From Frigoribacterium sp. ACAM 257 (GTDB taxonomy: Bacteria > Actinomycetota > Actinomycetes > Actinomycetales > Microbacteriaceae), in NCBI RefSeq assembly GCF_007954365.1, contig NZ_VOLO01000003.1, positions 124,001-188,000 on the forward strand: 64,000 bases of DNA. Direction: 5' to 3'. Below are positions 47,900-57,558 of this stretch, in pieces; position 1 is the first letter of the stretch, and each line of letters opens with the position of its first letter. Both the position numbers and the translations under genes were made by a program. A model generated the notes under the pieces. That model saw nothing but the letters and a program-made list of their open reading frames with translations, was not told the origin of the DNA and made no database searches.

Positions 47900-48973
47900 G
47901 TGGCTCTCACTATCGCGATCGTCGGACTGCCCAACGTCGGCAAGTCCACCCTGTTCAACGCCCTGACCAAGAATCAGGTGCTGGCGGCGAACTACCCGTT
48001 CGCGACCATCGAGCCGAACGTGGGCATCGTCAACCTGCCCGACCCGCGCCTCGACGTGCTCGCCGGCCTGTTCGGTTCGGAGAAGACCCTGCCGGCGCCG
48101 GTGTCGTTCGTCGACATCGCCGGCATCGTCAAGGGCGCGAGCGAGGGCGAGGGGCTCGGCAACAAGTTCCTCGCGAACATCCGCGAGGCCGACGCCATCG
48201 CCGAGGTCGTCCGCGGCTTCGTCGACCCCGACGTGGTGCACGTCGACGGCAAGGTCGACCCCGAGGGCGACATGGGCACGATCAACACCGAGCTGATCCT
48301 CGCCGACCTCGAGACCGTCGAGAAGGCGCTCGTGCGCTACGAGAAGGAACTCCGCCTCAAGCGCGTCGAGCCGCTCACGCACGAGACGGCCGTGGCCGCC
48401 AAGGAGGCGCTGCAGCGCGGCGAGGCCCTCTCGGCCTCCGGCATCGACCTCGAGCCCATCCGTGAGCTCGGGCTGCTCACCGCCAAGCCCTTCATCTACG
48501 TCTTCAACGTCGACGAGTCGATCCTCACCGACGACGCCAAGAAGGCCGAGCTGTCGGCCCTCGTCGCCCCGGCCGAGGCGGTCTTCCTCGACGCGAAGAT
48601 CGAGTCCGAGCTGATCGACCTCGACCCGGAGGACGCCGCCGAGCTGCTCTCGTCGACCGGCCAGGACGAGTCCGGCCTCGACCAGCTCGCCCGCATCGGC
48701 TTCGAGACCCTCGGCCTGCAGACCTACCTCACGGCAGGCCCGAAGGAGACCCGCGCCTGGACCATCGGCAGGGGCTGGAAGGCCCCCCAGGCCGCGGGCG
48801 TCATCCACACGGACTTCGAGAAGGGCTTCATCAAGGCCGAGGTCATCTCGTACGCCGACCTCGTCGAGACGGGCTCCATCGCGGAGGCGCGCTCGGCCGG
48901 CAAGGCCCGCATCGAGGGCAAGGAGTACGTCATGCAGGACGGCGACGTGGTGGAGTTCCGCTTCAACAACTAG
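47900..48973 (+). CDS. ychF: Redox-regulated ATPase YchF
   Basis: Obg-family P-loop protein that prefers ATP and binds ribosomes. The 357-residue product has G1 IVGLPNVGKST, switch I region NYPFATIEPNVG, G3 VDIAGIVKGAS, the noncanonical G4 (NVDE) and a C-terminal TGS domain ending VVEFRFNN. GTG at 47900 has a -10 box just upstream. The last 22 bases (48952-48973) are duplicated at 54304-54325 and are read here as attL; the gene itself is intact. Confidence 0.94.
   Translation: MALTIAIVGLPNVGKSTLFNALTKNQVLAANYPFATIEPNVGIVNLPDPRLDVLAGLFGSEKTLPAPVSFVDIAGIVKGASEGEGLGNKFLANIREADAIAEVVRGFVDPDVVHVDGKVDPEGDMGTINTELILADLETVEKALVRYEKELRLKRVEPLTHETAVAAKEALQRGEALSASGIDLEPIRELGLLTAKPFIYVFNVDESILTDDAKKAELSALVAPAEAVFLDAKIESELIDLDPEDAAELLSSTGQDESGLDQLARIGFETLGLQTYLTAGPKETRAWTIGRGWKAPQAAGVIHTDFEKGFIKAEVISYADLVETGSIAEARSAGKARIEGKEYVMQDGDVVEFRFNN
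48952..48973 (+). repeat. attL: 22-bp direct repeat in the 3' end of ychF
   Basis: GGAGTTCCGCTTCAACAACT plus AG, ending at the ychF stop. The copy at 54304-54325 differs at one base. This is the proposed left attachment site. Confidence 0.8.
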
Positions 48974-48994
48974 TCGGTCCCGCTCGCCCTGGAT

Positions 48995-49246
48995 CTACGC
49001 GGATCCGGCCCGACAGTTCGTCACAGATTCTTCAGCATCCCCAAAGACGTCGTCGACGAGCCCTTGGGCGGCCCGCCTGGTGCGGTCCTCCTCGCGCGGC
49101 CACAGGTGGGTGTACTCGTTCAGCTTGATCGACGGCGACGAGTGCGCGAGGGCCGTCTGAACCGTGGCGATCGAAAAGTTCGCAGCGATCAGCCCGGACG
49201 CGAAGTAGTGGCGCAGGTTGTGCAGGACGAGGCGTGCGCGCGACAC
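48995..49246 (-). pseudogene. Tyrosine integrase, C-terminal remnant
   Basis: About 83 residues match the C-terminal catalytic part of phage-type tyrosine recombinases: HNLRHYFASGL (His-x-x-Arg), LAHSSPSIKLNEYTHLWP (catalytic His and the nucleophile Tyr), then REEDRTR. The N-terminal two thirds, with the first catalytic Arg, are missing. The frame continues upstream into an unrelated sequence beyond 49246, where a deletion seems to have joined it to the tail-protein fragment. It cannot work as an integrase. Confidence 0.85.
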
Positions 49247-49398
49247 CGCCGCGGTACGCGCCTGCGGTGATGCGGTTCCAGCAGCCGGCGGCGCCGGTGG
49301 TCACCCGGGAGGGTGACAACTTCTACATCCAGGCGCCGACCGATCCGGTCGCGGTGGCTCAGGCCGTCTCGCGACGACAGCAGGGAAGGGGTATCTGA
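49243..49398 (+). pseudogene. Probable phage tail protein, C-terminal fragment
   Basis: An open frame of about 51 codons ending TGA at 49396-49398 contains VTREGDNFYIQAPTDP and AVAQAVSRRQQ. This pattern (a Gly/Asp beta-strand, then 'DP.AVA.AV.RR') resembles the C-termini of phage tape-measure or minor tail proteins. There is no start codon with a ribosome-binding site; the 5' end stops at the integrase remnant. Recognition is from pattern only. Confidence 0.45.
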
Positions 49399-49637
49399 TG
49401 GAGCTCGAGCCCGACCAAGACGCGACCCGGTTGCTGTGATTCGAGCATGCCGACGGCTCCACGGCGCTGCTGCCTGCGCATCACGAAGAGCTGATCGCGG
49501 TGCTCACTGTTGCGCTCGGCGCTGCTCGAGACGACAAGACCGCGGTGTTGCTCCTCTTGGGAGTCAAGGCCGACGCCGATCTCGATGTGAACTACGGACG
49601 CATGGTCATCGTGCAAGGGGTCGAAAAGCTCTTCTAA
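49398..49637 (+). pseudogene. Small phage-type gene broken by in-frame TGA
   Basis: ATG at 49398 overlaps the preceding stop (ATGA). The frame reads MELEPDQDATRLL, then TGA at 49437-49439, then continues open for 65 codons with a good-looking sequence (FEHADGSTALLPAHHEELIA... KADADLDVNYGRMV) to TAA at 49635-49637. Reading TGG for TGA would restore a 79-residue protein. It is therefore more likely a nonsense-inactivated gene than two short ones. Confidence 0.65.
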
Positions 49638-49774
49638 ATGCTGCTGCGCGCAGCGACGCCGTTCGAGGTCGTCCTCATCGGATCACGCCTGCCCGCACTC
49701 ACTAATGTAGCGAGAGCGCCGCTAGCGCAGGACTCTCTCCCAGGCAGCCGCGACGGTCGCTCACTGCTGGCAGT

Positions 49775-49814
49775 CCGAGGCCGCGCCTAGCCATCAGAGC
49801 AGAGGCGGCCTCGG
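49775..49814. repeat. 10-bp stem hairpin in the element
   Basis: CCGAGGCCGC (49775-49784) and GCGGCCTCGG (49805-49814) are exact complements 20 nt apart. It may be a terminator; the rest of 49638-49927 (290 bp) shows no gene. Confidence 0.5.
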
Positions 49815-49876
49815 CAGCCATGCTCGTACCCGTCGGGTGCCGTGGGGGAAGCCGTCCGCGAGCCGGTCCGCGCCGC

Positions 49877-50410
49877 TCACGCCACCCAACTCTGGGAGAC
49901 ACAGTTGCTTCCCGCTACGGTCGAGCCATGTCCCCCATCGAGCCCCTGCCCGACCTGCCGACCACGGCCGGCGACGCTGTCCAGTGGGTCGGGCAAAACG
50001 GAGGGTTCCGCTTTACCCGCAGCGACCCCGATGTGTGGGTGGTCCACCGTCGAGGTGACCAGACCTGGGTCGGTCGGCTCGAGCGACACGGTGGCCTCTA
50101 CGACTTTTCCACCACTGGCGGGAAGCCCGGCACGATCGCCATCAGCGCTATTGGCATGCATTTGACCGAGGTCGTAACTGACCTGCTCTGAGACGCTCAC
50201 GACCGCGATCGCGTCGGCCGCCACCATGCAGGGCAGCGTCTCGTCGGCGATGAACAGGGCCACGACGTCACCGGCCTGATGCACGATGACGCGCACGACA
50301 TCGTCGACGAGGTCGCCGTCGCCGTCGCCGTCGCGGTCCGGGACCGTGATCGTCTTCCCGATCATGTCGCCGGACAGCAGCCCGGCGTACGTCTCACGGC
50401 GGTCGGCCAT
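49877..50410 (-). CDS. Hypothetical phage-type protein, C-terminal end uncertain
   Basis: The first ~75 residues from ATG at 50410 look like a real small protein: MADRRETYAGLLSGDMIGK, TITVPD, an Asp/Gly repeat, VVRVIVHQAGDVVALFIADE and ending AADAIAVVSVS. After that the frame runs antisense to the 49928 gene and becomes low quality. A stop codon was probably lost. The Asp/Gly run (DRDGDGDGDLVDD) comes from an imperfect GTCGCC repeat near 50310. No function recognised. Confidence 0.45.
   Translation of the reverse strand: MADRRETYAGLLSGDMIGKTITVPDRDGDGDGDLVDDVVRVIVHQAGDVVALFIADETLPCMVAADAIAVVSVSEQVSYDLGQMHANSADGDRAGLPASGGKVVEATVSLEPTDPGLVTSTVDHPHIGVAAGKAEPSVLPDPLDSVAGRGRQVGQGLDGGHGSTVAGSNCVSQSWVA
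49916..49921 (+). promoter_or_regulatory. -10 box of the 49928 gene, leaderless
   Basis: TACGGT ends 6 nt before the ATG at 49928. Confidence 0.45.
49928..50191 (+). CDS. Hypothetical protein, 87 residues
   Basis: Begins MSPIEPLPDLPTTAGDAVQW and reads smoothly to VVTDLL. Composition is Trp/Gly-rich with alternating hydrophobic residues (VWVVHRRGDQTWVGRLE), suggesting a small beta-rich domain. No family recognised. The start is an ATG with a -10 box just before. On the opposite strand a longer ORF (49877-50410) overlaps it; which one extends here is uncertain, but the promoter and internal consistency favour this one. Confidence 0.55.
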   Translation: MSPIEPLPDLPTTAGDAVQWVGQNGGFRFTRSDPDVWVVHRRGDQTWVGRLERHGGLYDFSTTGGKPGTIAISAIGMHLTEVVTDLL

Positions 50411-50424
50411 CACGCACGCCCCGC

Positions 50425-50430
50425 TACGCT
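50425..50430 (+). promoter_or_regulatory. -10 box of the 50438 gene, leaderless
   Basis: TACGCT ends 7 nt before the ATG at 50438 and overlaps the beginning of the minus-strand gene. Confidence 0.45.
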
Positions 50431-50437
50431 CAGGCCC

Positions 50438-50794
50438 ATGATCAGTGAGCAAGGGGCGATCCTGATCGCCACGGTGTACCCGATCGGCCTGCTGCTGTTG
50501 CTCGTCGAGGGGGTAGAGGCTTTCGAAGCCTTCATCCACCTGTTCGGCCAGCGGCTGCGTTCGCTGGGCTTCTTCGTCTCAGTCGCCGAAATCACCGCGG
50601 TGACCATGTCAATCGCTTTCTGCGTGTACTCGGTGAGCTCTGGAACCGCGCTGGACGGCTTCCAGGCCGTCGTGGTCTCCGTGTCAGGAGGGCTGCTGAT
50701 GTTCTTGTTCGCCCTGGCAGCTGGATCGTTGCTGGGCAGAGGTGGCATTTCGATTGACCGCTTGCGGTCCTCGAAGAAATCGGACGATGAATAG
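50438..50794 (+). CDS. Hypothetical membrane protein, 118 residues
   Basis: Three predicted membrane helices (near residues 6-24, 42-64 and 74-96; e.g. GAILIATVYPIGLLLLLVEG, GLLMFLFALAAGSLLG), a short basic/acidic tail ending SSKKSDDE. No family recognised. Size and topology are seen in phage holin-like or accessory proteins, but nothing specific supports that. Confidence 0.55.
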   Translation: MISEQGAILIATVYPIGLLLLLVEGVEAFEAFIHLFGQRLRSLGFFVSVAEITAVTMSIAFCVYSVSSGTALDGFQAVVVSVSGGLLMFLFALAAGSLLGRGGISIDRLRSSKKSDDE

Positions 50795-50926
50795 GTCGTG
50801 AGCATGCTGATTGAGCTCTCCTCGGGCACGCGGCACGAAGCTCGCGAATCGTGAGGCCGCGCGGTCGTCCCAACGTCTCTTGAGTATGCATCGCCTAGTC
50901 ACCATGTGCGATCGTCTGGCCTGCTC

Positions 50927-50932
50927 TATCGT
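50927..50932 (+). promoter_or_regulatory. -10 box of the 50939 gene, leaderless
   Basis: TATCGT ends 6 nt before the ATG at 50939. Confidence 0.45.
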
Positions 50933-50938
50933 TTCTGC

Positions 50939-51175
50939 ATGACTAAGCCGCGTGACCATCACGACCACGAAAGCCACGCGTACGGACGGGCCCACGCCAT
51001 CCGCGATCGTGGCGAGACCCAGTGGCGGGTTTCGTTTGCCGGCGGTTACAAGGGCACCGTGCACGAGGTTGGGGGACTGTTCCATGCGACCTATCTCGGT
51101 CACGTCGGCGAGGCCGACCTCGGTGGCTACCCGTCACTCGACGACGCAATCGACGCGCTTATGGACGAGGACTAG
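50939..51175 (+). CDS. Hypothetical protein, 78 residues
   Basis: Starts MTKPRDHHDHESHAYGRAHA with a His-rich segment, then a small domain with WRVSFAGGYKGTVHEVGG and GGYPSLDDAIDALMDED. The acidic ending and 'SLDDAIDAL' helix resemble small phage or plasmid proteins. No function recognised. Its TAG is shared with the stop of the converging 51172 gene. Confidence 0.55.
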   Translation: MTKPRDHHDHESHAYGRAHAIRDRGETQWRVSFAGGYKGTVHEVGGLFHATYLGHVGEADLGGYPSLDDAIDALMDED

Positions 51176-51360
51176 TCCAGGGGCTCCGGGGCGCAGCGGC
51201 TGATGAGGTCGCGGATCTCGGGCTCGTGCTGCAGCATCCAGGCGACGGCGCTGTTCAAGGTCGCAAACTTCCGCAGCCAGGGCCTGCGGTTCTCTTGGTC
51301 CCTGCAGTACGCGTAGCAGTGGTAACTGGGCCCGTTGCGCGTGACCGTGAGATGACCCAC
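51172..51360 (-). CDS. Hypothetical protein, 62 residues
   Basis: GTG at 51360 gives MGHLTVTRNGPSYHCYAYC, followed by RPWLRKFATLNSAVAWMLQHEPEIRDLISRC. The sequence has a sensible hydrophobic pattern for a small alpha/beta protein with three Cys. It converges on the preceding gene through a shared CTAG. No function recognised. Confidence 0.45.
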   Translation of the reverse strand: MGHLTVTRNGPSYHCYAYCRDQENRRPWLRKFATLNSAVAWMLQHEPEIRDLISRCAPEPLD

Positions 51361-51774
51361 CCGAGGGGCGGCCCTGGCTTGACTTGGACTACCCAGAACC
51401 CGTTCGCGCCCGGGGCCGGCGGGTGCGCGTGTGGGTGCGTCGGGGACGGCTTCCCCCGTGCTCGTCTGGCTGCGTCTCCTGGCTCGGAGACCTTCACGGG
51501 CGGACGCTACGGCCAGCGACCGACAACGGAATACGCGCCCTTGGCGAATCTAGTTGACCGTCTGCAATGGCTGCGGTCGTTGCGGGCCCTCGGGTGAACA
51601 CTGGTGGTGGGGACGCAGCACGAGTTGCGATCGCGCCGCCTCGAGGCTGTAGCTGTGAAAACAGCAGGTTGGTCGGGCGCCCGAGTCTCTTCTCTGCCGA
51701 GGCCGCGGCGACGCTCGTAGTGACCCTCGCCTGAGACGCGTCGCGTTCTGCCGTCGCTGTAGGGTTAGCTGATC
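51361..51774. other. Non-coding stretch in the element
   Basis: 414 bp with no convincing gene. A + strand frame ends RPTTEYAPLANLVDRLQWLR before a TGA near 51595 and a minus-strand frame contains NGFWVVQVKPGPPLGW; both look like short remnants of decayed genes, too weak to annotate. A -10-like TAGGGT lies at 51760-51765, 9 nt before the next gene. Confidence 0.4.
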
Positions 51775-52224
51775 ATGAGCAGGCAGGGGAAGCAGCGTGC
51801 GTTGCAGACGCGCAGGGCAGCCCGTAAGGACCCTCCGGCCGTTTCCCCGGCACAGGAACCGTGGCCCATCCCTGCTGAGGAGGACTGGGACCACTCGTCG
51901 GGCAGTTTCGCCTACCACGTGAGTGCAACGGTGCGGATCGTTGAGCGAATCGGTCGCCTGGACGGCCGTCTGGTCTTTTACGCGATCATGCTGGAGTGCG
52001 TGTCGGCTGGCGGCGAATGGACGAACGTCTGGCGCATCGATTGCAAGCATGACTCTGTTCACCGACACACGTTCGCCGACGGCATGAAGAGTCGCGAGGT
52101 CATCAGGCCGATTTCGGGCCAAGACGATGTAGAAAGTACCTATGAGGCGTCGCTCCAAGAGGTCGAAGAGCGATGGCCAGAGATCGAGAGAGGTTGGCGT
52201 GATGGACGTCCGTACCGAGCGTGA
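51775..52224 (+). CDS. Hypothetical protein, 149 residues
   Basis: Begins with a basic, Arg/Ala-rich tail (MSRQGKQRALQTRRAARKD), then a folded part with DDWDHSS-like EEDWDHSSGSFAYHVSATVR, RLVFYAIMLECVS, EWTNVWRIDCKHDSVHRHTF and a C-terminal helix (SLQEVEERWPEIERGW). No recognised family. The next gene starts 23 bp before its end, so the two are likely translated together. TAGGGT 9 nt before the ATG may be its -10 box. Confidence 0.6.
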   Translation: MSRQGKQRALQTRRAARKDPPAVSPAQEPWPIPAEEDWDHSSGSFAYHVSATVRIVERIGRLDGRLVFYAIMLECVSAGGEWTNVWRIDCKHDSVHRHTFADGMKSREVIRPISGQDDVESTYEASLQEVEERWPEIERGWRDGRPYRA

Positions 52225-52633
52225 GCAGCGGGATCTATTTGCGGGAACGGTCCTCCGGGCCGTGGCACAGGGGGCGGGTCCTCTTCTGCGCGTCACGGCT
52301 GATGATGGAACGCGGCCGGTTGTCGTGGCGTTTGACCACGAGCTGGTGTCCGATGTTCTTAACCGGGTCAGCTGGTCGGGCGGGTACGCGAACCTGTTCG
52401 TGATCGCCGGCGAAGGAAAGATGATCCGCGCATCCGTCGTGCCTCCAAGTGCGTCTCTTGACGAGGGAGCGGCTGAGTCTCTGGGCCTTGGAGCCGTGCA
52501 CGACGACTCGACGATCGGAATGCTCATGGCGAACGTCTCGACTGCTCGAGACGGCCTGACCGTCCAGGTGCGCCTACCTCGTAATGCAGCCGATCTGAGC
52601 AGCATCAGCGCTCCTGAGCCCGTCCCTGCTTGA
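52202..52633 (+). CDS. Hypothetical protein, 143 residues
   Basis: ATG at 52202 inside the previous gene has GAGAGAGG nearby and gives MDVRTEREQRDLFAGTVLRA. The sequence is a soluble alpha/beta protein: LLRVTADDGTRPVVVAFDHE, NLFVIAGEGKMIRASVVPP, DGLTVQVRLPR. No function recognised. An overlapping pair with a shared terminator suggests that the two proteins act together. Confidence 0.6.
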   Translation: MDVRTEREQRDLFAGTVLRAVAQGAGPLLRVTADDGTRPVVVAFDHELVSDVLNRVSWSGGYANLFVIAGEGKMIRASVVPPSASLDEGAAESLGLGAVHDDSTIGMLMANVSTARDGLTVQVRLPRNAADLSSISAPEPVPA

Positions 52634-52636
52634 CGC

Positions 52637-52679
52637 GCAAGAAGCCCCGCTCCTCTCCTCGAGGGGCGGGGCTTCTTGC
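52637..52679. terminator. Terminator after the 51775-52633 gene pair
   Basis: GCAAGAAGCCCCGCTCCTC (52637-52655) pairs with GAGGGGCGGGGCTTCTTGC (52661-52679), with a single wobble pair. It probably also terminates the converging minus-strand gene. Confidence 0.8.
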
Positions 52680-52687
52680 CGGTTGCG

Positions 52688-52915
52688 CTACTTGCCGAGG
52701 GACAGCATGGCCGGCTGCTCTCCGCCGGCGACCGCGCGGTAGAATCGAGACAGCGCCTCGATCGCAGAGGCGCTGTGCTTGCCGTCGACAAGCCGCTTCA
52801 GTGCAGTGAGAATGCTCAGTTTGGCGTCGAGCTTGGCCTGGTCCAATTCTTCTTTCGACGCCAGGAGGGCGCCCTTTGTTGTCGGTGGTGCAACGGCAGT
52901 GGGCTCCTCCGACAA
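52688..52915 (-). CDS. Small hypothetical protein (start uncertain)
   Basis: About 75 residues from a TTG at 52915: PTAVAPPTTKGALLASKEEL, then a helical KLDAKLSILTALKRLVDGKH and ASAIEALSRFYRAVAGGEQP, ending LSLGK. The sequence looks like a small amphipathic helical protein. The open frame continues upstream to 53488 but opposite the 52964 gene, with poor sequence, so I place the start late. No ribosome-binding site supports it. Confidence 0.4.
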   Translation of the reverse strand: MSEEPTAVAPPTTKGALLASKEELDQAKLDAKLSILTALKRLVDGKHSASAIEALSRFYRAVAGGEQPAMLSLGK

Positions 52916-52963
52916 CGGTGCCCGCTGCTTCCGGTCACATCGGCGCCGAGGCAGACTCGGTGT

Positions 52964-53431
52964 GTGCCTATCGAGACCCCCGAAGACAAACCCGATGAGA
53001 CGCCGGAGCGGCGCAAGCTCACTCAGGAGCAGAAGGCGTCTCTGTTTGAGACACCCGTGTGGGACCGCCTTCAGGACGCAATTACCGCCGGAGTCTTCAG
53101 CGGCGTGCTTGATCGATACCCGGGACCAGGTCGTGGCATTGTGCCCGAGCCTCCACCCCTGCCTGTCGTGGCGTACAACGATTCTCCTGACCGGACCGCC
53201 CGTGCTACGCAGGAACTGGCAGGGCGTGCAGCGGACACGAATGAGCTCACAAAGCAACTTGCGGCCGCCATGGTGGAGAGCCTGGCTCTGTCGAAGCAGG
53301 CCCGTGAGGACGGACGAGTGTCCGCAGAGTCGTCCCGGCGCTACGCCGTTCAGTCGTTGGTGATCGGCTACACGTCCGGAGTACTTGCGTTCGCGTCTGC
53401 CGTGATCGCCCTCATCGCATTCCTCCGCTAG
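52964..53431 (+). CDS. Hypothetical membrane-anchored protein, 155 residues
   Basis: GTG at 52964 starts a soluble, charged N-terminal part (PIETPEDKPDETPERRKLTQ), a Pro-rich middle (DRYPGPGRGIVPEPPPLPVV), a helical segment (ELTKQLAAAMVESLALSKQAR) and a C-terminal membrane helix (VIGYTSGVLAFASAVIALIA) with a single Arg after it. The tail-anchored design fits a phage- or plasmid-encoded membrane protein; function unknown. CAGACT 6 nt upstream may be a leaderless -10. Confidence 0.55.
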   Translation: MPIETPEDKPDETPERRKLTQEQKASLFETPVWDRLQDAITAGVFSGVLDRYPGPGRGIVPEPPPLPVVAYNDSPDRTARATQELAGRAADTNELTKQLAAAMVESLALSKQAREDGRVSAESSRRYAVQSLVIGYTSGVLAFASAVIALIAFLR

Positions 53432-53468
53432 ACACCCGTCCCGTGCCTCATGGTGCAGGACGGGTGTT

Positions 53469-53939
53469 GTGGGCGACGATGGCGGCACGACGCGCCGTCA
53501 GTACCGTTCGCACGGTTCCAGTCGCGGTAGCGAGCTCTCAGCGCTCGAGCGAGAGATGAAGACTTGGCTGCGCCTCGGCCTTGTCCGCGGCGACAACCCG
53601 CCAGGCACGTTCCGACGCTGGCAGGACTTCTACGGCGACTGGTCCGAGTGGTCGCCGCGCGAGGAGGCCGACTTCGTACGCTGGTGCCTGATAGAGGACG
53701 GGACATCCTACGACGCCGCCGGCGCCGAGATGCGCGAGATGGTCGACGTCACGCCGCCGCCGGCCCGTCGGGATCCGGCTCCGTGGGTCGCGGCCTTCGC
53801 TTCCTCGGCTTCAGGGGCTGCTTCGGGCCCCGCTGCCATCGCTCCACGGCCTCGCGACGCGGATCCGGCGTTCCATTCATCCACGTGTCGACCAACGCTG
53901 GCCGGACTCTCCATGTTCCGTACTTCACGCGCTGCGTAG
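53469..53939 (+). CDS. Hypothetical protein, 156 residues (C-terminus doubtful)
   Basis: The first ~100 residues are plausible (LEREMKTWLRLGLVRGDNPP, FRRWQDFYGDWSEWSPREEA, DFVRWCLIEDGTSYDAAGAE). The last ~55 run antisense to the HTH pseudogene, are Ala/Ser/Pro-rich and probably arose by loss of the original stop. Some Trp/Arg-rich helices suggest a nucleic-acid-related or structural protein; no family is recognised. Confidence 0.45.
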   Translation: MGDDGGTTRRQYRSHGSSRGSELSALEREMKTWLRLGLVRGDNPPGTFRRWQDFYGDWSEWSPREEADFVRWCLIEDGTSYDAAGAEMREMVDVTPPPARRDPAPWVAAFASSASGAASGPAAIAPRPRDADPAFHSSTCRPTLAGLSMFRTSRAA

Positions 53940-54165
53940 CGAACAACTCGCCGGTCTGACAGGCCTTCCGCACGGTGTCCTCGGGGAGGCCGACCCGGGC
54001 CGCTGCTTCGCGCGTGGAGAGCCAGGCCGAGTCCTCGGCGGGAGCCCGTGTCGCCGCGGCCGTCAGGGCGTTGAGTTAGAGCGCGACCTGCTCCTCGAGC
54101 TGGTGGGCAATCTCGTCGCGGATGTACGCCTCGAGGGCGGCGGCCAGGTCGGTGCTCGTCGTCAT
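53749..54165 (-). pseudogene. HTH/excisionase-like protein broken by in-frame TAA
   Basis: ATG at 54165 starts MTTSTDLAAALEAYIRDEIA, a good N-terminal helix, then TAA occurs at 54076-54078 after residue 29. The frame then continues open for 109 codons with a helix-turn-helix pattern (WLSTREAAARVGLPEDTVRK, ACQTGELFATQRVKYGTWRV) and a basic Pro-rich tail (KQPLKPRKRRPRP), typical of MerR-like/Xis DNA-binding proteins. Two short ORFs are less likely than one gene with a nonsense mutation. Lies just left of attR. Confidence 0.65.
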
Positions 54166-54303
54166 GCAACTACCGTGCCAACGTTCGTCAGCCGTTCGTC
54201 ACGACACCCGTCTTATGGCACAGACGACCATCGACGGAGACGCGCGCTCGCCCCGGAATCTCGGGCCTACCGTCGGTCACCATCGACAAGACAACAGCCC
54301 CGC

Positions 54304-54325
54304 GGAGTTCCGCTTCAGCAACTAG
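54304..54325 (+). repeat. attR: second copy of the ychF 3' end
   Basis: GGAGTTCCGCTTCAGCAACT plus AG; one base (G for A) differs from 48952-48973. In its own frame it encodes EFRFSN and a stop, echoing the EFRFNN end of YchF. This is the proposed right attachment site. Confidence 0.8.
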
Positions 54326-54647
54326 GTGTGCCCGGCCCCGAGCTAGGCATATCCGACACGGTCGCTCGCGACATTTCTTCTATTTGAGGAAACTTAGTGG
54401 CGTATTCGTTCACGTCATAGGCAACGAGCCTGAGCACAACGACATTCGGAAGCACCCGCACGCAAAACTGCTGTATGCCGTGCTACGTTTGTAAATGAGG
54501 TAGATACTCCCCATCGACGGCCGAGTAGTCGGGCGCTAGTACGACCTAAGGTCTTGTGGGTAGTGAACGGCCTTGCTAATACCTTGATCAGCGGCAGTCT
54601 ACGCGTAAATGTGTGGGTATTTCCGACGTCAGCACTTTGGGGGAGTA
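54326..54647. other. Low-GC non-coding stretch before the Septu-like genes
   Basis: 322 bp without a convincing gene. GC is visibly lower than in the flanking chromosome. TTGATC (54583-54588), 16 nt, then TAAATG is a possible promoter, and GGGGGAG lies just before the ATG at 54648. No reverse transcriptase is present, so there is no reason to read it as a retron RNA. Confidence 0.4.
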
Positions 54648-55892
54648 ATGGTTAACATTCTAGAGCATGCCCACGGGCCGTTCTCATTCAGTCTCGCGAG
54701 AAGCGAGGAACATGGCAACCGGTACACAGTAGTGATTGGATCAAACGGCTCTGGGAAGAGCAGGCTGCTGAGAAGCTTGGCTGATAAAACATCGCGTAGT
54801 GCCGAGGGTCAGAACCTTGCTGAAGTAAAATGGCCCAGCAGAACTTTGGCGGTGTCGAATCTCGTCTCTGACGTCTTCAAGTTTTCAACTGAGGGTGAGG
54901 GGGCGTATCTTTATTTAGGGCTGCGGCAAAGCACTAACCTGCTGACAACTGGATCTCTTCGAGATGCGACGGTACAGGCCGTCTTCGGCTGTACAGCAGA
55001 TAAGTGGCAAGCGGACGCGTTGACTAGAGCAACTGCTCTGATCGGTTTCTCCAGCTACTCGATCATTTCTGAAGGTGTAAGCGGGGAGCCGTCATCTCGC
55101 GAGGGTTTCCTCATGGATCTCAACCGATCACGACGCGATTTCGAACTACCCCGGGATATCCAAGAGCAGGTCTACGAATTCCTGTCGTCTGAGCGTGTAC
55201 AACGAGATGCCGCGGACTACTCAAATATCTACGAAGTCTCTGCCGTTCGAAGCTTCACGCATTTCGCCACAAGTGTGGGTCTTGAGGTGGCCGATTTATT
55301 GCGCATGGCAAAACGTTATAAATTTGCCAGCTATAAGCTCAGCTTCAACCGTGGCGACCAGTCTATGGATTCGAGTGAACTCAGTACCGGACAGCTATTA
55401 TTGTTTTCTATGGTGGCGAGAATTGTGTCATCAATCGCTCGAAATTCTTTGGTACTCATTGACGAACCAGAGACTGGTTTGCATCCCGAGTGGCAAGCAG
55501 CTTTTTTGCCTCTACTCAAGGACTGCTTGCCCGGCGAACTCGAGAGTCACATCATTCTCGCGACTCACTCGCCGCACATCGTTTCAGACGCTTCCGACGT
55601 CCTCTTGCCTGGCGACACTTGGGGTCAGTTCGTGAGCTTTAACGAACCCCACTTCGGACAGCCGATCGAAAGTCTCTTGTACCGAGTTTTCCATGCTCGC
55701 GTAGCGGGAAACTTGTTGGTCGAAGAGGACCTCACGATCATTCTCGAGTTCTTGGCAGGTTTAAAATCCCGTGAGCAGATGCGCGAGGTCGCAGATGCTG
55801 TTGAGAGACTTGAAAACGTTGCAGGCTTAGACACTCCCACTGTGATGGAAGCCATCCTGGCTGCAAAACATATGATTGAGACCGGACTGTGA
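54648..55892 (+). CDS. ptuA: AAA ATPase, Septu PtuA-like
   Basis: 414-residue ABC/SMC-type ATPase of the AAA_21 class. Walker A GSNGSGKS at residues ~31-38, signature SSELSTGQ near 242-249, Walker B SLVLIDEPETGLHP near 267-280 and the H-loop ATHSPHIVSD near 305 are all present. The middle is poorly conserved. The gene uses at least five TTA leucine codons, which high-GC neighbours avoid. It overlaps the following HNH gene (GTGA), and the pair matches the two-gene Septu defence layout. Substrate sensing is not known. ATG at 54648 has GGGGAG upstream. Confidence 0.8.
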   Translation: MVNILEHAHGPFSFSLARSEEHGNRYTVVIGSNGSGKSRLLRSLADKTSRSAEGQNLAEVKWPSRTLAVSNLVSDVFKFSTEGEGAYLYLGLRQSTNLLTTGSLRDATVQAVFGCTADKWQADALTRATALIGFSSYSIISEGVSGEPSSREGFLMDLNRSRRDFELPRDIQEQVYEFLSSERVQRDAADYSNIYEVSAVRSFTHFATSVGLEVADLLRMAKRYKFASYKLSFNRGDQSMDSSELSTGQLLLFSMVARIVSSIARNSLVLIDEPETGLHPEWQAAFLPLLKDCLPGELESHIILATHSPHIVSDASDVLLPGDTWGQFVSFNEPHFGQPIESLLYRVFHARVAGNLLVEEDLTIILEFLAGLKSREQMREVADAVERLENVAGLDTPTVMEAILAAKHMIETGL

Positions 55893-56542
55893 GGTCATTA
55901 TCCCGACCGCCGTCGTATCTTATATTGCCTCAGTCCGATAGAATATTCGTTCGTAAGTCGGTGCAACACTGGCGTGACTGGGATTCCAGTGCGGGTTCCT
56001 GCGTAGAATTCAGGGCTGCATTTCGTGCCTGGGCCATGCGGAACCAAGAATATCGATGTGCGTACTGTTGCTTGACCATCGATGACGGTCACAACCGCTA
56101 CCCGACAATTGATCACTTCGTCCCGAAGAGTGGTGATCATGGAATTCCGGACTGGACCTTTGAGTCAGCAAATCTATTGGTAGCGTGTGCTTCTTGCAAC
56201 ATGGGCAGCAAAGGGCAAAGCAACACACTTTCGCGTCCGCACACCACCGACTATTCAAGAAACACTTTTACGGTTTTTCATCCCTACTTTGACGATCCTA
56301 GCCTTCACATTATTGGTGGCTATCCCGGTGGTACTGTTCGACCCTCACCCATTCGAGGTGTTTCCAGCGCGGGCCTCGAATACATTCGTCTATTCAATCT
56401 CTCGCATCCAAGTCTGCAACACGTATGGAAGAACGAATGCTATATCGCGCGTCGAGAGGCAAGACGAAAGCCTTTGCGCTCCATTTTTGGTCCTGCGCTA
56501 GGGCAGATGCTGCGCGAATTGGCGCGTGCGCGTAGGTTCTGA
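55889..56542 (+). CDS. ptuB: HNH endonuclease, Septu PtuB-like
   Basis: 217-residue nuclease, the likely effector of the pair. CAYC (Cys57/Cys60), then the core YPTIDHFVPKSGD with the catalytic HNH histidine region, W-F-ESANLL, and CASCN (Cys ~99/102) form a zinc-stabilised ββα-metal fold typical of PtuB. The protein then has a mixed alpha/beta C-terminus (LEYIRLFNLSHPS, REARRKPLRS). In Septu systems PtuA ATPase and PtuB cut DNA or tRNA after phage sensing; the exact target here is unknown. Starts GTG, overlapping ptuA by four bases. Confidence 0.8.
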   Translation: MRSLSRPPSYLILPQSDRIFVRKSVQHWRDWDSSAGSCVEFRAAFRAWAMRNQEYRCAYCCLTIDDGHNRYPTIDHFVPKSGDHGIPDWTFESANLLVACASCNMGSKGQSNTLSRPHTTDYSRNTFTVFHPYFDDPSLHIIGGYPGGTVRPSPIRGVSSAGLEYIRLFNLSHPSLQHVWKNECYIARREARRKPLRSIFGPALGQMLRELARARRF

Positions 56543-56625
56543 GCTCCCAGTTTTTAGTTGTGATCACGACGCGATCGCAGGGGGCTAGGAGCGAACCTGA
56601 TCACAGTCGCTCGACGAGGGAGAAG

Positions 56626-57558
56626 ATGAACAGGCAACAGGTCGTCGAAGGCAATCCAATACCTTCGGGATACTTAGCTGGGGCCCCGGCCGGACCCCGC
56701 ACCGCCGTCGTCTTCGGCGGCGGCGGCATCACCGGCATCGCGTGGGAGCTGGGCGTGCTCGCCCGCCTGCTCGAGGTGGGCATACCGCTGGACGACGCCG
56801 ACCTCGTCGTCGGCACCTCCGCGGGCTCGGTCGTCGGCACCACCCTGCGGCTCGGGGCGAGCGGCATCGCCGATGCGTACGCCGAGCAGCTCGTGCCCGC
56901 TGCGGCGACGCCCGAGGCCGCGCTCGACGGCGAGGACTTCATGCAGCGCATCGGCCAGGCGATCCAGGGCGCGACGAACGCTGAGGAGGCGCGGGCCCGC
57001 CTGGGCGCGCTCGCCCGGCAGGTGCCCGTCACAGGCGACGAACCCGAGCTCGTCACGGCCATGCGCGGGCGCTTCGGCGCGGACGCAGCCTGGCCCGAGG
57101 GGCAGCTCGCGATCTGCACCGTCGACGCGACCGACGGCGAGTTCCGGGTGCTGACCGCCGCCTCCGGCGTGCCCCTGCACGTCGCCGTCGCGGCCAGCTG
57201 CTCGGTCCCGCTCGTCTGGCCGACCGTCGAGGTCGACGGGCGGCCGACCATGGACGGCGGCATCCGCTCGGGCACCAACGCCGACGTGGCCGACGCCGCC
57301 GAGCGCGTGCTCGTGCTCTCGTGCGGGCCGGAGCTGGCGCAGTCGCCGCTCGGCCCGACCCTGCCCGGCGTCGTCTCGACCCGCATGGGCGCCGACCGAC
57401 CCGTCTTCGTGATCGAGGCGGACGCCGAGAGCATCGCCTCCTTCGGTGCCAACTCGCTCTCGAGCGCGAACCGCGGCCCGGCTGCCGAGGCCGGCCGTCG
57501 TCAGGCCGAGGGCGTCGTCGAGGCCGTCCGTGCGTTCTGGGCCGGCACCGCCGCCTGA
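56626..57558 (+). CDS. Patatin-like phospholipase, N-terminus in low-GC DNA
   Basis: 310-residue lipid acyl hydrolase. The oxyanion hole GGGGITGIAWELG, the nucleophile elbow GTSAGS (Ser) and the catalytic Asp in MDGGIRSG are present. Residues 1-17 (MNRQQVVEGNPIPSGYL) are encoded with AGG, ATA and TTA codons in low-GC sequence, then base composition changes abruptly near 56685 where GGGGCCCCGGCC begins. The right boundary of the acquired segment thus lies in this gene, and the original N-terminus may have been replaced. ATG at 56626 has GAGGGAGAAG upstream. Confidence 0.82.
   Translation: MNRQQVVEGNPIPSGYLAGAPAGPRTAVVFGGGGITGIAWELGVLARLLEVGIPLDDADLVVGTSAGSVVGTTLRLGASGIADAYAEQLVPAAATPEAALDGEDFMQRIGQAIQGATNAEEARARLGALARQVPVTGDEPELVTAMRGRFGADAAWPEGQLAICTVDATDGEFRVLTAASGVPLHVAVAASCSVPLVWPTVEVDGRPTMDGGIRSGTNADVADAAERVLVLSCGPELAQSPLGPTLPGVVSTRMGADRPVFVIEADAESIASFGANSLSSANRGPAAEAGRRQAEGVVEAVRAFWAGTAA

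Follow-up and report, generated by a model that had tools for sequence, protein, structure and literature searches.

A Septu type I gene pair of an unusual lineage beside the ychF 3' end in Frigoribacterium sp. ACAM 257

We analysed a 64,000-nucleotide stretch of the Frigoribacterium sp. ACAM 257 genome (contig NZ_VOLO01000003.1, positions 124,001 to 188,000; hereafter the window) and found that two overlapping genes in it, ptuA and ptuB, make up a Septu type I system. The system itself is sound and ordinary; its lineage is unusual. The pair is very probably a chromosomal Septu type I system, gained horizontally and lying at the 3' end of ychF, with the proposed action of PtuA assembly and PtuB nuclease activity.

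54648..55892, forward strand: ptuA, ABC/AAA-type ATPase of Septu, 414 amino acids
55889..56542, forward strand: ptuB, HNH nuclease of Septu, 217 amino acids, GTG start

An earlier note on this DNA had claimed an overlapping pair of open reading frames (ORFs), and we found it at the same positions. The two genes are co-directional and overlap by 4 bp, with the GTG at 55889 lying inside the end of ptuA. A ribosome-binding-like stretch, GGGGGAG, is located just 5' of the ptuA ATG at 54648; the ATG at 54609, also in frame, is the less probable start. No promoter- or terminator-like sites were found in 54100-57000, where the promoter scan covered one sigma type only.

Profiles, folds, motifs and gene order all back the assignment to Septu. 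The best PADLOC models were those of Septu PtuA1 (3e-46, 156 bits) and PtuB1 (4e-20, 70 bits). Pfam places the ATPase in AAA_21 (2.5e-21), with PtuB matching HNH below threshold, and both predicted folds agree with those of solved Septu PtuA and PtuB. PtuA carries a Walker A motif (GSNGSGKS, residues 31-38), an STG signature at 246-248, a Walker B motif (LIDEPE, with D272 and E273) and an H-loop histidine, H307. PtuB carries C57-x2-C60, H76, N95 and C100-x2-C103-N104, that is, two CxxC knuckles with a His and an Asn. All of the core PtuA and PtuB motifs that had been claimed for the pair were thus seen, and the key residues are invariant or near-invariant in alignments of 57 PtuA and 55 PtuB sequences, window included. 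At the second signature position (247), the window PtuA has Thr, as do 2 of the 57 sequences in all, whereas the other 55 have Ser.

These comparisons started from a seed alignment of the window pair with a copy from the same family and three pairs carried on plasmids. It led to 52 viral contigs and to 80 genome loci, ranked best among at least 198 confirmed ones. Seventy paired relatives were eligible, having a distinct sequence and E <= 1e-24 with the A1 profile; alignments A3 and A4 hold 56 and 54 of them, respectively, plus the window. The rows dropped by hand from these two alignments were mostly short, fragmentary or near-duplicate, and a few were long or divergent. A search of genome contigs with the single protein returned no relative, whereas the scan with alignment A1 did find relatives. 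A PtuB-like ORF adjoins the ATPase, in ptuA-then-ptuB order, at 63 of the 80 genome loci and on 35 of the 52 viral contigs. These counts were made with our own hidden Markov models (five sequences each, the window's included) and an allowed gap of -60 to +110 bases; they also depend on the choice of start codon, and at least one unpaired locus (L079) may have a mis-called start.

The leading PADLOC PtuA1 models match all 57 aligned PtuA sequences. A single PDC-M01A model and a single AriA model likewise reach every one of the 57 at 1e-10, with lower best scores, and models of both kinds match the window ATPase, whose top phmmer matches are AriA chains. Such matches would be expected if the pair were another ABC-ATPase defence system, whether PARIS AriA, PDC-M01 (a PADLOC candidate) or a pair resembling OLD or Gabija. 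However, PDC-M01A reaches 94 bits where PtuA1 reaches 156, PDC-M01B reaches 31 where PtuB1 reaches 70, and a test for the AriB partner showed that the gene beside the ATPase encodes a PtuB-fold HNH protein, not AriB. PARIS, PDC-M01 and OLD-like identities were rejected on relative profile and fold scores, and we consider an identity of this kind extremely improbable.

Solved PtuA and PtuB structures of the retrons Ec78 and Ec83 are among the closest to the window proteins, tied with Septu, as would fit a retron type I-A (Septu type II) whose reverse transcriptase and non-coding RNA had been lost or separated. Septu type II corresponds to retron I-A and includes a reverse transcriptase, according to the consulted part of a published account (PMC8565338). 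In a profile search of the whole genome, RVT_1 was absent (3 of 14 controls were positive), and at Rfam gathering scores tRNA was the sole match in the window, with no retron RNA; retron I-A was rejected on these two results. The PADLOC scores point the same way, with 156 bits for PtuA1 against 55 for ATPase_I-A, and 70 for PtuB1 against 44 for HNH_I-A. The NCBIfam models of Ec78 PtuA and PtuB (NF041760 and NF041761) stayed far below their cutoffs, with 45.4 bits where 500 are required and 35.9 where 150 are required. Furthermore, the fold alignment begins at Ec78 residue 64, leaving an N-terminal part of Ec78 PtuA without a counterpart in the window protein. A retron origin, already largely refuted, therefore receives almost no weight from us.

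How the Septu pair would act can be proposed from studied relatives. PtuA, an ABC-type ATPase, would assemble into an oligomer that holds the HNH nuclease PtuB in check; Li and colleagues reportedly described a PtuAB oligomer in 2024. Infection would disturb the PtuA-PtuB state, so that PtuB is released or activated and cuts nucleic acid. Phage growth would then be stopped either by cleavage of phage DNA or by cleavage of host tRNA that halts the infected cell, giving a putative abortive defence. The consulted parts of two studies bear on these steps. In the Escherichia coli Septu system EcB88, the ATPase and HNH motifs are both required, the phenotype is described as that of typical abortive infection, with a weaker effect against T6 at high multiplicity, and tRNA-Tyr is cut in its variable loop (PMC13096335). 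PtuAB of retron Eco7 degrades tRNA-Tyr, retron Eco4 is probably not tRNA-targeting, and the Septu system of E. coli ATCC25922 is cited as acting on nicked DNA (PMC11555353). Since the studied relatives reportedly act on nicked DNA or on tRNA-Tyr, we leave the target of the window PtuB as DNA or tRNA.

The earlier note had further suggested a divergent Septu subtype, and this idea held for the divergence but not for the subtype. In the PtuA tree, the window protein groups with that of another genome of the family, G054; the grouping is fully supported, and its stem is long, at 1.04 changes per site. Together they are sister, with support of 100/99, to a proteobacterial PtuAB clade made up of pairs from a Rhizobium plasmid (L028), a Pseudomonas plasmid (L030), Roseinatronobacter (L033) and Pseudomonas frederiksbergensis (L032). 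L028 and L030 are the nearest plasmid relatives, and each has an additional gene upstream: in L028, from Rhizobium CIAT894, a dCTP deaminase gene lies 127 bp before ptuA, and in L030 a gene for an 850-amino-acid AAA ATPase overlaps ptuA. The window PtuA is compact at 414 amino acids, and the stretch following its Walker A motif spans 18 residues against a median of 29 in 56 relatives, 19 of which have a similarly short stretch. The ATPase is shorter still in 21 of the 70 paired relatives (one of these, at 198 amino acids, seems to be truncated), and the region beyond residue 344 is of ordinary length, 71 residues against a median of 70 in the 56 relatives. A distinct subtype defined by size was rejected on these grounds, and domain make-up and PADLOC class likewise place the pair within type I. 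Because the branch is long and well supported, yet the ATPase is not unusually short, we regard the pair as a divergent type I lineage and not as a new subtype.

Close copies of this lineage are rare. We detected ptuA in 1 of 16 genus genomes and in at least 2 of 398 family genomes (E <= 1e-12), the window genome included in both, while in an order sample and a phylum sample (396 genomes each) the window's own genome was the sole match. All of these counts are lower bounds; in the family, order and phylum searches, only the top four candidates per genome were scored and cut-offs of E below 1e-12 or 1e-20 were applied. The copy in G054 (L024:9921-11813) is the only other same-family ptuAB copy found; both of its genes are interrupted by stops close to their beginnings, and its neighbouring genes differ from those of the window. 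Another actinobacterial PtuA/PtuB-like region, in Pseudarthrobacter oxydans (L105), appears to be frame-broken.

The composition of the pair sets it apart from its surroundings, as had been noticed before. G+C content (GC) is 51.6% in ptuA and 51.7% in ptuB against 68-77% in 11 neighbouring genes, and GC at third codon positions (GC3) is 0.55 and 0.51 against 0.91-0.98. ptuA contains five TTA codons and ptuB one, whereas the neighbours contain none. Due to these differences in GC, GC3 and TTA codons, the segment holding ptuAB is probably foreign to the chromosome. Composition and patchy distribution together suggest that ptuAB arrived horizontally. The flanking features are as follows.

48952..48973, forward strand: left 22-bp repeat, the ychF 3' end (attL-like)
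48998..49300, reverse strand: C-terminal remnant of a tyrosine integrase (PF00589, 3.4e-8; phrog_1, 1.7e-9)
53749..54165, reverse strand: excisionase/helix-turn-helix-like ORF with an in-frame stop (part after the stop: HTH_17, 1.1e-9; phrog_66, 1.6e-7)
54304..54325, forward strand: right 22-bp repeat (attR-like), 21 of 22 identical, 322 bp before ptuA
54326..56681, no strand: low-GC, probably foreign segment holding ptuAB, reaching from the right repeat into the patatin-like gene as far as roughly codon 19
56626..57558, forward strand: patatin-like phospholipase gene (PF01734, 7.7e-18)

The two repeats differ by one mismatch (0 matches expected by chance) and bound the first 5.3 kb after ychF, with the integrase remnant just inside the left copy and the excisionase-like ORF inside the right. 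The attR proposed earlier, with the pair just outside it, corresponds to the right, attR-like copy of this ychF 3'-end repeat. With up to 3 mismatches allowed, no third copy was found in either the window or the genome, to the right of ptuAB or elsewhere. The integrase remnant and the stop-broken excisionase-like ORF bear out the earlier claim of a decayed element beside the pair; its designation as a prophage is less certain. In a PHROGs search of nine pieces, clear matches were obtained for these two only, both to integration and excision functions, with a weaker match of the excisionase-like ORF to a terminase small subunit family. One further ORF in the interval matches DUF7718 in Pfam. 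The other seven ORFs tested lack a clear phage match, so that the interval may represent a decayed integrative element instead of a prophage in the strict sense.

The state of this element raises the question of whether the Septu pair still works. A genuine pair that had become an inert passenger in a decayed island would be consistent with the decay next door, with the early stops in both genes of the related G054 copy and with the lack of a consensus promoter 5' of ptuAB in the one-sigma scan. However, both window frames are full length with intact catalytic residues, and ptuA retains its start codon and ribosome-binding-like stretch, so we judge an inert pair unlikely. The adjoining integrative element could also suggest that the pair, while belonging to the same family, acts mainly against plasmids or other mobile DNA instead of phages, and phage and plasmid defence overlap in general. 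The parts of the literature consulted contain no Septu precedent for an anti-plasmid role, and we consider such a role quite improbable.

To the right of ptuAB, homology with sister genomes resumes at 56682-56696, and GC changes from 51.6-54.7% in the foreign segment to 76.5% just beyond it. Compared with five sister genomes, the first ~19 codons of the patatin-like gene and its upstream region have been replaced by the foreign segment. We infer that the native gap was lost by deletion, together with any distal repeat right of ptuAB. With its replaced N-terminus, the patatin-like gene now begins at a new start codon located 83 bp downstream of ptuB, and it may have become co-transcribed with ptuAB. 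It was rejected as a third Septu gene, because it is matched in all 16 genus genomes and ptuA in only one.

On sequence grounds, integration at the ychF 3' end has recurred in the genus and in the family. In 6 of the 16 genus genomes (G000, G001, G003, G010, G012, G015), no more than 30 kb separate ychF from the patatin-like gene at the end of the island; in the other ten, the two genes are on different contigs or more than 500 kb apart. The gap between them is ~150 bp in G010, 0.85 kb in G015, 2.4 kb in G003, 7.7 kb in the window, 9.6 kb in G001 and 29 kb in G012. Across the 16 genomes, the 22-bp sequence (up to 3 mismatches) occurs solely at or downstream of ychF, with 0 matches for the reversed control, and four genomes have displaced or extra copies of the ychF end (G000, G007, G008, G012). 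In the family sample, a 24-base version (up to 3 mismatches) was found in 185 of 398 genomes; among the matches listed, the reversed control gave one (G325). Two or more copies are present in 27 genomes, 14 with copies 0.6-12.4 kb apart on one strand, 3 with copies on different contigs and 10 without listed positions.

Different defence genes occupy this site in other genomes, in keeping with a candidate defence hotspot such as the earlier note had envisaged. The 29-kb insert of G012 (L164, L020) encodes serine recombinases along with a reverse transcriptase of the DRT4 type (8.5e-97), a restriction-modification protein of type IIG (2035 bits) and an OLD-like ATPase. In G007, a GmrSD protein and a serine recombinase lie directly before the displaced ychF end, and in G000 the defence model is just outside the repeats. 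Tyrosine- and serine-recombinase elements may both use the ychF 3' end. The observations on the site come from 48952-54325 of the window and from loci L020, L164, L165 and L175-L186. Beyond G000 and G012, we fetched 12 of the 27 multi-copy genomes and scanned ten proteins from 7 of the 12 loci, leaving the other five and G008 unscanned; PADLOC was run on some ORFs only. AbiD models matched in the G138 and G295 loci. In G138 (L185:1075-2112), the ~1.1 kb separating two ychF ends are taken up by a lone AbiD/Abi_2 gene, with no recombinase there. In G305 (L181), the 12.4 kb between ychF-end copies include a GmrSD_N protein with HEC-05-like PADLOC matches, nSTAND proteins (NTPase of 810 amino acids) and an ORF that resembles a tyrosine recombinase by eye, with no Pfam match at 1e-5. 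The scanned proteins from G155, G156, G107 and G366 gave no PADLOC match at 1e-5; a CHAT protein is present at the G155 locus. In total, a recognised defence model was found at 6 of the 16 loci considered, which are those of G000, G007, G008, G012 and the 12. In Streptococcus pneumoniae, a prophage att site of different sequence adjoins ychF, as described in the consulted part of one report (PMC8637289); a literature search for integration or defence hotspots at ychF gave papers on pneumococcal prophages and, among the matches listed, none on such a role of ychF.

We tentatively raise a broader scheme, possible but rather doubtful, in which the ychF 3' end would be a family-wide docking site of defence genes where small, apparently recombinase-less segments are stacked and moved in trans, and where the Septu cargo would have lost its distal repeat by deletion. 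Segments such as the G138 AbiD gene would presumably have been moved in this way, and the deletion would also have taken the start of the patatin-like gene. Such docking logic would be comparable to that of staphylococcal cassette chromosome (SCC) elements at rlmH. The broader gain is the site itself, as the conserved ychF 3' end offers an address, readable from genome to genome, at which candidate defence genes may gather, and the integration hotspot beside ptuAB deserves its own study. The pair adds a compact, deeply branching Septu lineage that should help in comparing the target of PtuB, DNA or tRNA, among the members of the family.

Compared with known systems, the window pair has most in common with the Septu type I PtuAB of E. 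coli (PDB 8ee4, 8eea, 8sux): the gene pair, its order, the motifs, both folds and the PADLOC models are common to the two, and in neither was a reverse transcriptase found. The window proteins are, however, only 16-20% identical to those of E. coli in the fold alignments. Identity to the proteobacterial clade, which has the same gene pair, is 28-31%; the PtuA proteins of that clade are longer (480-527 amino acids), and those of L028 and L030 have a large insert after Walker A that the window ATPase lacks. The effectors of retron I-A (Ec78/Eco7 and Ec83) have related PtuA and PtuB folds, but no reverse transcriptase or retron RNA was found for the window pair. PARIS AriA-AriB shares the ABC-ATPase core with the window PtuA, whose partner is instead an HNH nuclease and whose profile and fold scores to PARIS are lower than those to Septu.
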